Of a stretch of 36,063 bases of DNA, positions 4,163 to 11,700 are shown piece after piece (the stretch's first letter is position 1; every line of letters begins with the position of its first letter). A program made the translations under genes and the position numbers. Under the pieces are notes generated by a model, which was given only the letters and a program-made list of their open reading frames with translations, made no database searches and was not told the origin of the DNA. The stretch is taken from assembly GCA_903927745.1 (NCBI GenBank), contig CAIYOH010000019.1, forward strand, positions 1 to 36,063, in the 5' to 3' direction. This DNA comes from an uncultured Mycobacteriaceae bacterium. Its GTDB lineage: Bacteria; Actinomycetota; Actinomycetes; Mycobacteriales; Mycobacteriaceae.

Positions 4163-4170
4163 CTGTCGTC

Positions 4171-4245
4171 GCGAGCGTGCCCACGCCCTGCGCGAGCGTG
4201 CCCACGCCCTGCGCGAGCGTGCCCACGCCGTGCGCGAGCGTGCGT
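4171..4245. repeat. 21-bp tandem repeat GCGAGCGTGCCCACGCCCTGC, 3 copies plus a partial fourth
   Basis: Copies at 4171-4191, 4192-4212, 4213-4233 (one mismatch), partial from 4234. Confidence 0.85.
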
Positions 4246-5292: not shown

Positions 5293-5829
5293 GTGCCTTT
5301 CATCGAATGCGTGGCGTCCCGCGAGATCTACCGGAATCCGTGGCTGGTGCTCCGGGAGGACGACATCCGCCGCCCGGACGGCAGCGCAGGCATCTACAGC
5401 GTGGTCGACAAGGGGACATACGCGCTGGTGTTGCCCTACGACGGTGGCCGTTTCCGGTTGGTCGAGCAATTCCGGTATCCGCTCGGCGCGCGGCGGTGGG
5501 AGTTTCCGCAGGGCAGCGCCCCTGATCGTGCCGAGGTCGAGCCGGCCGAGCTGGCTGCGCGCGAGCTGCGGGAGGAGACCGGATTGCGCGCGACGTCCTG
5601 GGAGGCGCTCGGCCTGCTCGACGCCGCCGCGGGCATGACCAGTCAGCGTGGCTGGGTCTACCTGGCGACCGGGATCGTCGAGGGGGAGGCGGATCGCGAA
5701 CACGAGGAACAGGACATGCGCAGCGCGTGGTTCACCCGCGATGAGGTCGAGGAGATGATCCGCTCGGGAGTCATCACCGACGCGCAGTCGATCGCCGCCT
5801 ACGGCCTGTTCCTGCTGAGCGGGCAGTGA
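5293..5829 (+). CDS. NUDIX hydrolase
   Basis: 178 aa; NUDIX box region GSAPDRAEVEPAELAARELREETGL. Confidence 0.88.
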   Translation: MPFIECVASREIYRNPWLVLREDDIRRPDGSAGIYSVVDKGTYALVLPYDGGRFRLVEQFRYPLGARRWEFPQGSAPDRAEVEPAELAARELREETGLRATSWEALGLLDAAAGMTSQRGWVYLATGIVEGEADREHEEQDMRSAWFTRDEVEEMIRSGVITDAQSIAAYGLFLLSGQ

Positions 5830-5835
5830 CGCTGT

Positions 5836-6237
5836 CTACCTGCCCCTCGCAGTGCGCCACGTCCCGGTCACGGGGTCGTATTCCGGGTGCAGGTATCCCA
5901 TGGACGTCAGATGCCCCTGCGCCGCCGTCACGGCCTCGTCGACAGCGGTCAGGTCGACGATCCCGGTGACGTACTCCTGCGGGTTGCTGCCGGGCACGCC
6001 GGGCGGCTCGCCCACCTCCCGGACGTCGTCGCACCAGGACGCCTCGTAGTGCAATACCCACCCGTCGGGAAGGTCATCAGCGTGGGGCTTTTGGGCGCGC
6101 AGCCGTTCCAGGTTGGATAGCTGATGCTCAGTCGGGTTGCGGTAGAACAGTACCGGCTCGAAAACGGCTAACGGCTCGCCGGCCATCTCATCCTCGGGCC
6201 GGTAGTCGACGTGGATGGTCGGTAAGGCCGGATGCAT
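5836..6237 (-). CDS. Conserved hypothetical protein, 133 aa
   Basis: Intact ORF, no competing better frame, composition consistent with coding. Confidence 0.6.
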   Translation of the reverse strand: MHPALPTIHVDYRPEDEMAGEPLAVFEPVLFYRNPTEHQLSNLERLRAQKPHADDLPDGWVLHYEASWCDDVREVGEPPGVPGSNPQEYVTGIVDLTAVDEAVTAAQGHLTSMGYLHPEYDPVTGTWRTARGR

Positions 6238-6642
6238 ACCCTATTATCGCACGCCCGTGTTCCCGTATGGCAGTGCGCGAATTGACGGTTGTTCGATTTG
6301 GTCATCGATCGGATCGTGTTGAAAAAATCACCAACTCAGAATTTTTCGCCAGTCTGCGCTACCGTCAGGATTCCGGCGGCGACGCCGCCGCGGTTATGGC
6401 GGTTTAGCCGAATGTCTGCGATGTCATTCCTGTCCACCGCGTGGCAGATCAGCGCCGCCATTGGCACCGACGAGTCGTTCGTCCTCAACATGCCTACTTC
6501 TCTCGACAACTACGACCGAAGTAAGCCCATCGGTCCTCCTGGTCCACCCTGACCGAGCAGGGCGCCGGTGAGGTCGCCGAGCACCTGGCCGGGCGCCGTG
6601 ACGAGTAGGCCAAGCGTGTCGAACTGCTGATCTTGCGTGTGC

Positions 6643-7659
6643 TCATGCGCTGGTAGCGGTTGCCAAGGCTTCGAGCCACTCGTCAACCATGGGAAGTTCT
6701 TGCGGAGGAAGGATGTGCCTTGCTACCAGCCGCTCGTAGGCTTCTGTCAGGAGTGCGGGCATGGTGGACGCCGAGAGAGACCTCAGGCAGTCCCATGCCG
6801 CGGCGACGTTCTGATACATCGGAAGTTCGTCGATGAAGTCGCGAAAAAGGTCGTGCTCGTTCCTGCGCTGGTAACCAGCAGGATCCCCGAATGCGACGCG
6901 CAGATCCAGGGCGTCAAGGACACGCTTGGCGATCACGCTGCGCAGGATGTCTGTGAACCTGAAGCTCACGTGCGTGGGCAGGTACAGCAGCGGGAAAGCG
7001 ACGGCGCTCACCAGGGTCAACTGGGTGTTGAAAGGGCAGAAGGCGCCGGCGGGCAGCACCTGGAGCCTCCCAACGCGAATGAAGTTGACGTCTCTCGCCC
7101 CAAAGACGAGCCGATGGATGGCATCCACGTCGGTGTCTCCGTCGATGAGGAACTGCACCACGGCTACTGGGCCTGCCACGAGTTCGCGCTCCGGCTTCTC
7201 GATCTCTGCGGCGACACGTTCCAACTCGCCGAGCGGAAACCCGCGCGGCCAGATCCGACTCCCGGGCAGACGCAGTGCGAAGACGTTGACGTACTCGGAG
7301 TCAGGGCAGTGGACGAGGCTTCGGTGAGCCTGCTCAATCTCCAGGAACGACGGGCTGAGGGTGGGCCATGTGTCGTCATCGGTGTCGATGATGGCATTGT
7401 GTCCCGCCTCAATGGCCTGCAGATACCCGAGGTTCTTGCGCGAGTAGTGGTTGTGCGGACTTGAGGCGAGCCGGTGCGTGCCCTCGAAGCCCAGGAGGTG
7501 GAAGCGGGTGCCCTCGTAGTCCACCTCCGGGGTCTTGCGATCCGCCACGACGATCACCGGGAAGTGAGCGGCCCACTGTTGCAGCGCGTCACTGGGCGCG
7601 TGGATGCTCGTGATCACCACAGCAGGATTGATCACCGCAGGATTGGACACGGCCGACAC
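6643..7659 (-). CDS. STELLO-type (former DUF288) putative glycosyltransferase
   Basis: 338 aa; YSRKNLGYLQAIEAGHNAIIDTDDDTWP motif resembles STELLO RK-x-GYL-x-AI-x-G-A...D-x-DD; WPRGFPL motif; start GTG 7659 or slightly downstream. Confidence 0.75.
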   Translation of the reverse strand: MSAVSNPAVINPAVVITSIHAPSDALQQWAAHFPVIVVADRKTPEVDYEGTRFHLLGFEGTHRLASSPHNHYSRKNLGYLQAIEAGHNAIIDTDDDTWPTLSPSFLEIEQAHRSLVHCPDSEYVNVFALRLPGSRIWPRGFPLGELERVAAEIEKPERELVAGPVAVVQFLIDGDTDVDAIHRLVFGARDVNFIRVGRLQVLPAGAFCPFNTQLTLVSAVAFPLLYLPTHVSFRFTDILRSVIAKRVLDALDLRVAFGDPAGYQRRNEHDLFRDFIDELPMYQNVAAAWDCLRSLSASTMPALLTEAYERLVARHILPPQELPMVDEWLEALATATSA

Positions 7660-7660
7660 G

Positions 7661-8578
7661 TCATACCAGTTTCGACCACTTGACCGGGTGGATGCCGATG
7701 CAATACGGGTTCTCGTTGAAATACCTGAGTAACGCGTCGACTCCGGAAAAGTCGAACTCGTTTCGCGATTCGAGCCACCTGATGTCGAGCCGTCCGTGCA
7801 GGAGCGTCGTCGGAAGTCCTGACCACGTCAGCATGGTGGGTATTGCCACCTCGACAAACAGTTTCGCGCGCACCGTCCTGGCGAGGAAGTCGGCGATCAT
7901 CCCCGCGTGGGCGTTGGGGAAGACAAGGAAGTCGGAATAGCCGAAGAAGAGGGGGATCTCGATCGACACGTGCCCGGATTCGTCAACCAACTGCGCCACA
8001 TGGAGTTGCACCCATTCCGAGCTGCGCCCAGCCAGGGGCGCCCAGCGGGTATCAGGCATTGCGTCAAGCCGCGCACTATTCGCGCGCCAGATCCCACTCG
8101 TCCGCAGGATGGCGGTCGGGTCCATCTCGCCACTTCCCGCCTCGAGACCAATCGGATCCAACATCGCGATCGCCACATTGTTGGTCCACGCCCACGCCGG
8201 GGCTTCATCTAAGCGCCGCGGGGACGAGGGATCAGTCCTCGCAGTGCAGAATCTCTCGACGGGCAAGACTCCGTCGCCGGCGAATAAAAACTGATCCGCG
8301 TCAGGAACCCGCTTCAGAGCCTCGAGGTCGAAGGTGGGATTCAACACCAGATCGTCGCTGACAACGATCGTGTAGCCCTCAACTGGTCTGGCAGCCTTCA
8401 GGAACTCGACTACGGCTGCCTGGAAGAGATACGGGCCGGTGTAGTACTCGACGTCTCCGCCACCGCCTGGGGGGGCCACGATGGTCACGTCGCCGAACTG
8501 GCTGTTCCAATCGCGGACAGCATCAACCGTCTCCGGAAATGGGTGGTTGTAGACGACACAAACCAGAGGTCGATTCAA
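7661..8578 (-). CDS. Putative glycosyltransferase-like protein paired with the STELLO gene
   Basis: 305 aa; GYTIVVSDDLVLNP (GT-A-like DD motif), FGYSDFLVFP, AKLFVEVAIPTMLTWSG; ends 1 nt before the STELLO ORF start; apparent TTG start. Confidence 0.65.
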   Translation of the reverse strand: MNRPLVCVVYNHPFPETVDAVRDWNSQFGDVTIVAPPGGGGDVEYYTGPYLFQAAVVEFLKAARPVEGYTIVVSDDLVLNPTFDLEALKRVPDADQFLFAGDGVLPVERFCTARTDPSSPRRLDEAPAWAWTNNVAIAMLDPIGLEAGSGEMDPTAILRTSGIWRANSARLDAMPDTRWAPLAGRSSEWVQLHVAQLVDESGHVSIEIPLFFGYSDFLVFPNAHAGMIADFLARTVRAKLFVEVAIPTMLTWSGLPTTLLHGRLDIRWLESRNEFDFSGVDALLRYFNENPYCIGIHPVKWSKLV

Positions 8579-8878
8579 CGTGCTCCCGCGGTCCGTGGCC
8601 AGTGGCAGTGAAACCGTACCCCACCCTCACCCGACTTACCCGCGTCGCCGGTGTCACAGCGACGCGAATCGCACCATGGATGTCTGAGCTTTGTGGGTTG
8701 TTGAGGTGCGGGCCGGCGACCGCGCTCCGGATGGAGTTGGGGTCTTTTTTTATACGTCCGATCAGCCCAAATGAGGAAAGCCGCACTACCCCAAGGCGCT
8801 TTGCTGCCTAGGCCATGATGCGGCTGATATGTCTGTTGCACCCCAGCAACGGGTCCGGTCAACACCCCACGGCTTAGA

Positions 8879-9628
8879 TCATGTGCCCGCTGCGGGTCGC
8901 GGCCAGGGGAGCCAATACGGGACCCGGCGCGAGTAAGCCTCGAATTCCGGTCCATGTCTGCGGCGGTAGCGCGCCTCCTTGAACCGCGGCGCCACCACGC
9001 AGTACGCCGTCAGCGCGATCGCGACCACGAGCTGGTCGGGCGTCCAGGTGGGCGCCGTCCACAGCGTCAACGTGAATGCGACGTAGATCGGTTGGCGAGT
9101 GAGTCGAAACAGGCCCTTCACAGGCAAGCCGGGGTAGGTGGGAGTCCGGTCGCACCACAGCGCGAACCACCCCAGTGTCCCCGTCTGCAGCGCCAAGCCG
9201 GCATCAACCATCGCCTTGAACAACAGCAGCCATGCCGAGGCGTACAGAACCGTCATCGCGAGCAGTGCGGTCCCGCCGGCCTGCCACCAGATCGTCCCGC
9301 TGGGCGTCCAGAGCGTGAAGAGGACAAGCAGTTGCACCGCCGCGACCATCACATAGGTGGTGGCCGCCAGCGTCCGCCCGTGGCCGCCTGGCGCTAAACG
9401 CGTCAACCGCGCTCCGCCTCGGGCGGTGAGTAGCGACGAATGTCCCAGCGTGAACTGCGCCAGCAGTCCCGCATTGACGACCCAGTTCCACGGTTGCGGA
9501 ACACACCCCCAAGAGCTGCTCATGCCGACAAACATCGCGGCTGTCATTGCGGCGATCCCGAGGACGAAAACGCTGAGGGATATCGTGCCGTAGCTGATCG
9601 CGAGGACCCGCCTCGACGTCGACGTCAC
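8879..9628 (-). CDS. Isoprenylcysteine carboxyl methyltransferase-like / MddA-like membrane methyltransferase
   Basis: 249 aa multi-span membrane protein; C-terminal LTRQPIYVAFTLTLW...RFKEARYRRRHGPEFEAYSRRVPYWLP typical of ICMT/PEMT-like fold; N-terminal half resembles MddA family. Confidence 0.65.
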   Translation of the reverse strand: MTSTSRRVLAISYGTISLSVFVLGIAAMTAAMFVGMSSSWGCVPQPWNWVVNAGLLAQFTLGHSSLLTARGGARLTRLAPGGHGRTLAATTYVMVAAVQLLVLFTLWTPSGTIWWQAGGTALLAMTVLYASAWLLLFKAMVDAGLALQTGTLGWFALWCDRTPTYPGLPVKGLFRLTRQPIYVAFTLTLWTAPTWTPDQLVVAIALTAYCVVAPRFKEARYRRRHGPEFEAYSRRVPYWLPWPRPAAGT

Positions 9629-9828
9629 CGTGCGGGCACCTCGGCGTCTGGCGAAACCCTGGCGGCAGGCCCCCCGGGCTTACTGTCTCGTTCTCTCCCC
9701 ACGACTCTTAGCCCCACGACTCGTTGACGACACGCACGGGTTCTTGGTTCATTGCCGCCTCTGCCCGTAGAGCGGACGCGCGTCAATGCCCCCTGCAGGC
9801 GTGCGATATCGCGGGGGATATGGACTGG

Positions 9829-10359
9829 CTAGGCGGCCCGGGTGGGCTTGTCGTCGATAGCTGCGCCGGATTTCTGCCCGCTGTAGCGGATCAGGAAGAT
9901 GGCTGCGGCGATGGACAGAACGAGCAGAGCCAATGCGCCGAGTTCGAGCAGCAGACGGGTGAGGGCGGCGTCCGTCTGCGGTTCCTCGAAGGCGGCGGTG
10001 ACGATGAGGATGCGGCGGACCCCGGCGATCAACCCGACGAAGAGAAACGGTTCCGCGGCGATTTGGTGGCTTTCGGTCACGGTCCGAAGGGTGTAGGCCA
10101 GTTCGGCGATGATGAGGGCAAGCAGGACTCGATCGAGGACGAGGACGGCGCCTTGCACCACATCCTGCTTCCCGGCCGCCACGTCAACGACGGCTTCCAC
10201 ACTGCCGATGACCACCAATACGGCCGCGGCGCCGAGCAAGAGAAACGCGAAGAGGTAGATCGCGGTTTCGCAGAACGTCGCCAGCCGACGGATGAGTGTG
10301 GACAGACCGTCACCTGGGATGTCGCTCTGTCCGTCATCCGTTTCAGTCAGCTCAGGCAT
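9829..10359 (-). CDS. PsiE-family (phosphate-starvation-inducible) membrane protein
   Basis: 177 aa from ATG 10359; LDRVLLALIIAELAYTLRTVTESHQIAAEPFLFVGLIAGVRRILIVTA typical PsiE core. Confidence 0.8.
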   Translation of the reverse strand: MPELTETDDGQSDIPGDGLSTLIRRLATFCETAIYLFAFLLLGAAAVLVVIGSVEAVVDVAAGKQDVVQGAVLVLDRVLLALIIAELAYTLRTVTESHQIAAEPFLFVGLIAGVRRILIVTAAFEEPQTDAALTRLLLELGALALLVLSIAAAIFLIRYSGQKSGAAIDDKPTRAA

Positions 10360-10387
10360 GGCGTTCCTCTCATCTGCGATTCGCGCG

Positions 10388-10775
10388 TCACACCGGCACA
10401 CCCGCATCCGCGGCCATGCCGCGGTGCATGATGCGATCGCCGACGACGTCGGCATGGTCTGCGCGATGCAATACGCAACGGTTGTCCCACATCACCACGT
10501 CTCCGGGTGACCATACGTGGCGGTAAATGTTGTCCGCTCGCGTGCAGTGGTCGAAGAGGTATGCGATGACGGATGCCGCCTGCGATGGCTCCATTTCGCT
10601 CACGTCGACGCATCGCTGCGGTGTAGAGAGATACAGCGCCGTCCGATCCGATGTCGGGTGGCGCAGGAAAATCGGATGGATCGCCGCTGTCTCCGCATCT
10701 TCGGGTGAGTCCAGGTGTGCCCGGAGCGGCGTCGCCCGCTCGCGCCCGCGCGGGACAGACGATCAAATCCACGTG
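10388..10775 (-). pseudogene. TauD/TfdA family Fe(II)/2OG dioxygenase, C-terminal remnant
   Basis: Minus frame reads ...IHPIFLRHPTSDRTALYLSTPQRCVDVSEMEPSQAASVIAYLFDHCTRADNIYRHVWSPGDVVMWDNRCVLHRADHADVVGDRIMHRGMAADAGVPV*; N-terminal half with HxD missing, in-frame stop upstream near 10778. Confidence 0.75.
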
Positions 10776-10852
10776 GGTTGTGTCGACCTCGTGACCGCGA
10801 GGGCAGCCCGACCGCCGGCTGAGCAGGCGCGGTGAGGCGGATGCGTTGAAAA

Positions 10853-11197
10853 CTACGCGGCGAGACCGAAATCGTCTTGGTGTCCAAGCGGTTCTGCGCC
10901 CTTGGGGTCAGCCGGGCCGGGTCCGTCGGGGCCTCCGCGGCCACCGCCGGGTCCACCGGGGTCCTCCCCCTTTCGGCTCGACCGATTGGCGATGGCGACG
11001 ATCAGGGCGTGCGCGCCGAGTCCAAGAGTGACGAGCCAGAAGACGATCACGACAGCCAAATGCAGCGACGCAATCCAGTCCTGTAGCGCCAGATTCAACA
11101 GGACTGCTAACCCCGCCATCGACCCCAAGGCCCACCATTTGACCCAGGCATGGGGATTTTTGGGCTTGTTGCTCTTGGGCCTGTTGTTCTTGAGCAT
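10853..11197 (-). CDS. Small membrane protein with Gly/Pro-rich C-terminal tail, hypothetical
   Basis: From ATG 11197: MLKNNRPKSNKPKNPHAWVKWWALGSMAGLAVLLNLALQDWIASLHLAVVIVFWLVTLGLGAHALIVAIANRSSRKGEDPGGPGGGRGG...; two predicted TM segments. Confidence 0.6.
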   Translation of the reverse strand: MLKNNRPKSNKPKNPHAWVKWWALGSMAGLAVLLNLALQDWIASLHLAVVIVFWLVTLGLGAHALIVAIANRSSRKGEDPGGPGGGRGGPDGPGPADPKGAEPLGHQDDFGLAA

Positions 11198-11627
11198 GGG
11201 GCCGCCTTGCTGCTGTCTGGTCCGGAGTGTCTCCTGACCACAATGGTAGCAACGGGGTCCCGCCGCAACCGGAGAAGCCCGGTGGCCCCACTCACGAGGG
11301 GAGGTCAATGTCGCCCAACCAGCGTCGCGGTGCGGCCACTCGCACTCAGAAGGGGTGGTTGTTGTCGTGCCATTCGGCGGATTGCGGGCGCTCCCCGAGG
11401 CGCTGGAGGTACGTCTCGTTTGGCCAGCATGATCGGCAAGCGTCCAGATAAAAATGGGTGCCGTCATCTCGATGTGTACGGCCAACGACCCCGGCAGCAG
11501 CCAGAACGGAGCGATCACGACTAGCGGGGGGATGGCGAACGCAACCACGGCGCGCTTGATGGCGCCGAGACCGGTCAGGCGCCAGCCCCGGGCAGCTGAA
11601 CACGTACGTGAACTGCCGTGATAGCGG

Positions 11628-11700
11628 TGCCCCCGGCAGGATTCGAACCTGCGGCCTTCTGCTCCGGAGGCAGACGCTCTATCCCCTGAGCTACGGGGGC
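11628..11700 (-). tRNA. tRNA-Arg (anticodon CCG)
   Basis: Minus strand GCCCCCGTAGCTCAGGGGATAGAGCGTCTGCCTCCGGAGCAGAAGGCCGCAGGTTCGAATCCTGCCGGGGGCA; full cloverleaf, 7-bp acceptor stem, loop CTCCGGA. Confidence 0.95.

Follow-up and report, generated by a model that had tools for sequence, protein, structure and literature searches.

A GT75/STELLO-like enzyme and an undescribed partner protein, encoded side by side in a Mycobacteriaceae genome, probably make and attach an unusual sugar

Normal cellulose deposition in plants requires the STELLO proteins, for which, to our knowledge, no enzymatic activity is known. Bacteria possess relatives that carry the name STELLO by automatic annotation only, and no paper on the activity of these proteins was found in the open-access literature. 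One such relative is encoded in the window analysed here, i.e. the whole stretch of 36,063 nucleotides of contig CAIYOH010000019.1 from an uncultured bacterium of the Mycobacteriaceae family, where it abuts a second gene without an assigned family. An earlier assignment of the DNA to a mycobacterium is backed by gene order only. The locus raises the question of which reactions the two proteins catalyse, and whether they constitute a single functional unit, as an earlier note on this DNA had proposed.

Both genes reside on the minus strand. P2 (7661-8578) encodes a protein of 305 aa, starts with TTG and is preceded by GGGAG, while P1 (6643-7659) encodes a protein of 338 aa with a GTG start. At their junction, the TGA stop codon of P2 (7663-7661) and the GTG of P1 at 7659 are separated by a single C. 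The arrangement of two frames with a 1-nt gap given in the earlier note was found unchanged, and all motifs quoted there are present in the respective frames. The length of an open reading frame is weak proof of coding in GC-rich DNA, given that 7 of 500 Markov shuffles yielded a frame of at least 338 aa. P1 and P2 are considered genuine genes because the GC content at the three codon positions is of the coding type (0.67/0.43/0.785 for P1 and 0.61/0.45/0.75 for P2) and because conserved homologues of both exist in distant bacteria.

A Pfam search, which the earlier note had suggested and expected to return STELLO for the 338-aa protein, did match the STELLO model (PF03385), but only weakly, at 24.3-25.2 bits against a curated cut-off of 27.8, and solely within residues 234-329, the C-terminal third of P1. 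Most relatives of P1 score above this cut-off. The model comprises 387 positions (the DUF288 region), of which P1 and all tested relatives match only positions 1 to about 100, so that the last 100 residues of P1 correspond to the first 100 positions of PF03385. In comparison with proteins of solved structure, P1 is closest to those of MtdL (E 4e-18), and a family profile built from 49 homologues aligns with MtdL across P1 residues 7-323 (E 4e-45). The AlphaFold2 model derived from the same 49-homologue alignment (pLDDT 88.9, pTM 0.91) has a GT75 fold: in a Foldseek search, MtdL ranked first (E 1e-22, TM 0.79), followed by rice UAM2 (E 2.8e-13), while ordinary GT-A enzymes appeared only at 2e-4 or weaker, far behind these two.

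MtdL is a GT75 NDP-pyranose mutase from Marinactinospora, acting on GDP-L-fucose and GDP-L-galactose (PDB 7xpr-7xpv, 7yua, 8hl8), for which an arginine-nucleophile mechanism has been proposed; unlike P1, it stems from an antibiotic cluster (PMC9937993). It resembles P1 in fold over almost the whole length. For plant STELLO proteins (STL1/STL2), a GT75-related region has been described, and these share with P1 a DXD element, a DVD motif and, at the position known from RGP, an arginine (PMC4906169). They differ from P1 as Golgi membrane proteins with about 287 further Pfam positions. Neither family label applies strictly: GT75 fails because the curated RGP model PF03214, to which MtdL itself scores 46.9 bits, matches neither P1 nor its relatives, and STELLO fails because of the length of P1. 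On the basis of sequence and predicted fold, P1 is a member of the GT75/STELLO superfamily whose nearest characterised relative is MtdL and not plant STELLO. The STELLO kinship named in the earlier note stands, below threshold for P1 and above it in most relatives, while the closer kinship to GT75 MtdL had been overlooked.

The active site of P1 was surveyed in an alignment of 85 bacterial and phage homologues using MtdL numbering. Asp94-Asp95-Asp96 (7372-7380, minus strand), equivalent to MtdL Asp109-111, form the putative DXD/DDD metal site; Arg139 within WPRG (7243-7245, minus strand) is equivalent to Arg159, the autoglycosylated, nucleophilic arginine of MtdL (PMC9937993); and Arg234 together with Asp237 (6949-6960, minus strand) is equivalent to Arg257 and the proposed general base Asp260. 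All of these residues are present in 85 of 85 homologues, and the same is true for the counterparts of MtdL Asp195, Gln229 and Arg289. His292 is conserved in 83 of the 85, the position of Ser228 is occupied by Ser or Thr, and the invariant Thr17 of P1 is the counterpart of Thr13, which takes part in recognising guanine. Most MtdL residues retained in the P1 family were shown to be essential in MtdL (PMC9937993). P1 differs from MtdL, apart from its STELLO-matching C-terminal part, as follows: Gln264 (6868-6870, minus strand) replaces the Mn2+ ligand His287 and is Gln in all 85 homologues, Asp87 is replaced by Tyr in 83 of 85, and Ser86 is mostly His. As judged from this alignment, the residues proposed as nucleophile and base in MtdL are retained in the P1 family, while changes affect a second-shell acid and one of the metal ligands. 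The exchanges D87N and D87S abolish MtdL activity and S91Y at the matching site abolishes the mutase activity of AtRGP2; moreover, the inactive AtRGP5 displays the Tyr state at the Asp87 site, and His287 is likewise not conserved there (PMC9937993). Because Asp87 and His287 are altered as in inactive AtRGP5, mutase activity of P1 is rated as likely and not higher. A few residues of the window P1, Thr97 and Thr212, are atypical of the family.

P2 yielded no match in Pfam, NCBIfam, PHROGs or among PDB sequences. Invariant residues in its alignment include NH near the N-terminus, DD..NP, G..DF, F.E.A.P and HP.K.S. The second of these elements contains Asp75-Asp76 of VVSDDLVLNP (8351-8356, minus strand), a DXD-like pair at the end of the third strand that is invariant in P2 alignments and kept in a viral fusion protein described below. 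In FVEVAIP (7838-7858, minus strand), F, E, A and P are invariant and viral fusions read FLEIAIP, while in HPVKWS (7673-7690, minus strand), H, P, K and S are invariant in the bacterial alignment and viral fusions read HPIKF or HPLKF. The structural model of P2 is of low confidence (pLDDT 56) and its matches reach an E of about 0.01 with low TM, but the named top PDB matches and most of the named BFVD matches are GT-A glycosyltransferases or related nucleotidyltransferases. P2 is probably an undescribed glycosyltransferase of the GT-A type, as far as this model can be relied on. The earlier note had read SDDLVLNP as a GT-A-like motif; the motif belongs to a family devoid of a database model, a novelty that was missed, and a GT-A fold is indicated only by the low-confidence model. 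The idea that P2 represents the C-terminal half of STELLO that P1 lacks was not supported, as neither P2 and its homologues nor the N-terminal domain of the viral proteins matched PF03385 at E values of up to 10 in a search of distant sequences with HMMER filters in place.

Homologues of P1 became visible in genome contigs by an alignment-based scan, while a scan with the single P1 sequence returned nothing. P2 homologues were found at nine bacterial loci, all nine of which also encode P1, adjacent in eight cases and 2 kb away in Caulobacter (L052). Apart from the window, these loci comprise plasmids of Sphingomonas insulae (L003) and Azospirillum brasilense (L004), Novosphingobium (L057), Sphingomonas (L063) and three members of the Sphingomonas family (L093-L095). 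The last three emerged from a search of 301 genomes with P2 only. The pairs from Sphingomonas, Novosphingobium, Azospirillum and Caulobacter resemble that of the window in possessing both genes, with 33-38% identity for P1 and 21-26% for P2, but differ in gene order, and they are annotated merely as STELLO and 'hypothetical protein'. At one locus of the Sphingomonas family (L093:1498-2499), the P2 homologue is broken by one in-frame TAG and the neighbouring P1 is intact.

Furthermore, the viral contig L106 contains a P2-like and a P1 domain in one frame of 602 aa, in the domain order of the window, and a second P2-P1 fusion on the viral contig L113 is disrupted in frame, the P2 start lying in another frame. 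The P2 profile matches the fused viral N-termini with an hhalign E of 5.6e-9, compared with 0.28 for the reversed control, and with a HMMER E of 1e-7 for L113. A direct P2 scan of viral contigs gave no match, and P2 was seen in viruses only as a fused or adjacent N-terminus in contigs bearing P1. The two-component coupling claimed in the earlier note is thus borne out by the constant company of P1 and by the viral fusion. Other viral P1 homologues were also encountered. The Synechococcus cyanophages Sf-CH8 and S-T4 (L006, L007) encode a divergent one with 24% identity to that of the window, located in a heptose/glycosyltransferase cluster and annotated as hypothetical or membrane protein. The 735-kb uncultured huge-phage record LR756501 (L005) holds a full-length homologue with 35% identity, the start of which is overlapped by a GT2-methyltransferase ORF.

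Where P2 is missing, P1 commonly has a different companion. Among 70 genome loci that encode P1 only and have at least 1 kb of upstream sequence, a GT2 gene (Pfam Glycos_transf_2, about 250 aa) lies upstream of P1 in 58 and abuts it in 46, while none of the six P2 loci with adequate flank carries such a gene (Fisher p 8e-5, with relatedness ignored). These loci include the bacterial 'STELLO glycosyltransferase family protein' of Bacteroidota, Acidobacteriota, Geobacteraceae and others, in which a P1 homologue is tightly coupled to one glycosyltransferase gene as in the window, although the partner is GT2 and not P2. Some other P1 loci feature different GT2 genes or other neighbours. P1 is accompanied by one transferase, and P2 is an alternative kind to GT2; the presence of either one or the other would be anticipated if every P1 required a single transferase dedicated to it. 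Rare adjacency of the two genes, which the earlier note had named as an argument against its proposal, is found in one direction only: P2 was not found without P1, whereas P1 mostly neighbours another glycosyltransferase.

With respect to the origin of the pair, P2 was detected in none of 300 other genomes of the Mycobacteriaceae family, in agreement with the earlier view that the pair lies outside the family core. Of 397 genomes of the phylum, 3 contain PF03385, including the window's own, which is also the only one of the 397 matched by the P2 profile. GC3 of P1 (0.785) and P2 (0.748) is the lowest of the window genes compared, the others ranging from 0.79 to 0.89. The pair is located in a hypervariable interval, one edge of which is formed by a tRNA-Arg(CCG) gene (11626-11700, minus strand): between a NUDIX gene (5293-5829) and tRNA-Arg/argS, congeners differ in the length of this interval, with values of about 5.5 to 19 kb; in the window it spans 5829-11626, and it looks like an insertion hotspot. 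The P1-P2 pair is laterally acquired, and contamination is an unlikely source since both flanks match relatives in order, although an assembly error is possible. In the P1 tree, the window P1 groups with viral sequences (97/92 with L108); both are long branches whose joining may be false, and for this reason no donor is claimed. A recent phage origin of P2 is not supported, as no phage sequence matched it; the only pairs found on plasmids were those of Azospirillum and Sphingomonas.

Two further features of the window were noted. At positions 4170-4243, a 21-bp unit (CGCGAGCGTGCCCACGCCCTG) is repeated in tandem 3.5 times, and short repeats similar to those immediately next to this array recur on several further contigs of the genome and, in one instance, in a congener. 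Positions 8879-9628 hold an ORF related to the methanethiol S-methyltransferase MddA (81.5 bits, equivalog cut-off 270), with a second copy-like match elsewhere in the genome.

The reading that we prefer, at a probability of roughly 0.45, is a laterally acquired glycan-modifying cassette in which P1 would perform MtdL-like NDP-sugar chemistry and P2 would transfer the product; the pair would thus probably make and attach an unusual sugar. P1 with its GT75 fold would bind an NDP-sugar via the DDD metal site, and Arg139 and Asp237 would act on the anomeric carbon in the manner of MtdL, giving rise either to pyranose-to-furanose interconversion or to an arginine-sugar intermediate. P2, as a putative metal-dependent transferase of the GT-A type, would then pass the product of P1, taken to be its donor, to a glycan or lipid acceptor. 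A GDP-type sugar is slightly favoured for P1, as an invariant Thr occupies the site of MtdL Thr13 and gmd, encoding GDP-mannose 4,6-dehydratase, is directly next to P1 in L063 and in its vicinity in L004; the CDP-glucose 4,6-dehydratase gene present instead at the P2 locus of L057 speaks against it. UDP-galactopyranose mutase and the GlfT transferases offer an analogy only, in that a ring-contracting mutase feeds a GT-A furanosyltransferase; the mutase is a flavin enzyme of unrelated fold and is not homologous to P1 (PMC9937993). The cassette reading is opposed by the replacement of Asp87 and His287, the former being a position at which exchanges inactivate MtdL, and its P2 part is weakened by the low confidence of the P2 model and of its matches.

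The same replacements would suit a possible, tentatively held alternative, according to which both proteins are ordinary glycosyltransferases adding successive sugars to one surface glycan, with P1 using an outside acceptor and forming neither a mutase product nor an arginine intermediate. In plant STELLO1, the arginine is dispensable (R271A), unlike the DXD residues, which are required (PMC4906169); this speaks against arginine chemistry in the plant STELLO branch. Many P1 loci also have other sugar-polymer genes in their vicinity. On the other hand, a plain transferase needs no arginine, yet Arg139 and its MtdL surroundings are invariant in 85 homologues; moreover, the partner varies between P2 and GT2 while P1 stays constant, a pattern more in keeping with a donor-making step than with a fixed second linkage. 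It is improbable that P1 is a catalytically altered, GT75-like NDP-sugar binder serving mainly as obligate partner or scaffold of P2, by analogy with what was proposed for the non-mutase AtRGP5 and rice UAM2. The Tyr at Asp87 and the loss of His287 as in inactive AtRGP5 (PMC9937993), the rank of rice UAM2 as second-best fold match, and a physical association of P1 and P2 as suggested by fusion and coupling would agree with such a role, but Arg159, Asp260 and Arg257 are invariant, the last being the residue named as lost in AtRGP5 (PMC9937993), and a degenerate pocket is not expected to stay invariant over many phyla. Lastly, the lowest GC3 of the genes compared, the singular occurrence in the family, the hypervariable interval and the atypical Thr97 and Thr212 of P1 could denote a decaying remnant devoid of present function in this organism; this is highly doubtful, given that neither frame is interrupted or shortened, that the stop and start codons adjoin closely and that all family motifs are retained.

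The P2 family and its obligate pairing with P1 appear to be undescribed, and P2 possibly represents a new transferase family; it is an unnamed group of proteins that genome annotation now calls hypothetical. As single-domain proteins with an intact GT75 nucleophile that are naturally paired or fused with one transferase, the bacterial STELLO relatives provide a tractable entry to the chemistry of the STELLO/GT75 superfamily. A bolder proposition, which we consider rather unlikely, is that P2 founds a new GT-A family whose members depend on a STELLO-type GT75 enzyme as their sole partner, both being parts of a single machine in which an activated furanose or an arginine-linked sugar is made and handed over directly. 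If this were true, the two-module viral fusion would constitute the simplest model for plant STELLO, which is likewise larger than its GT75 region.
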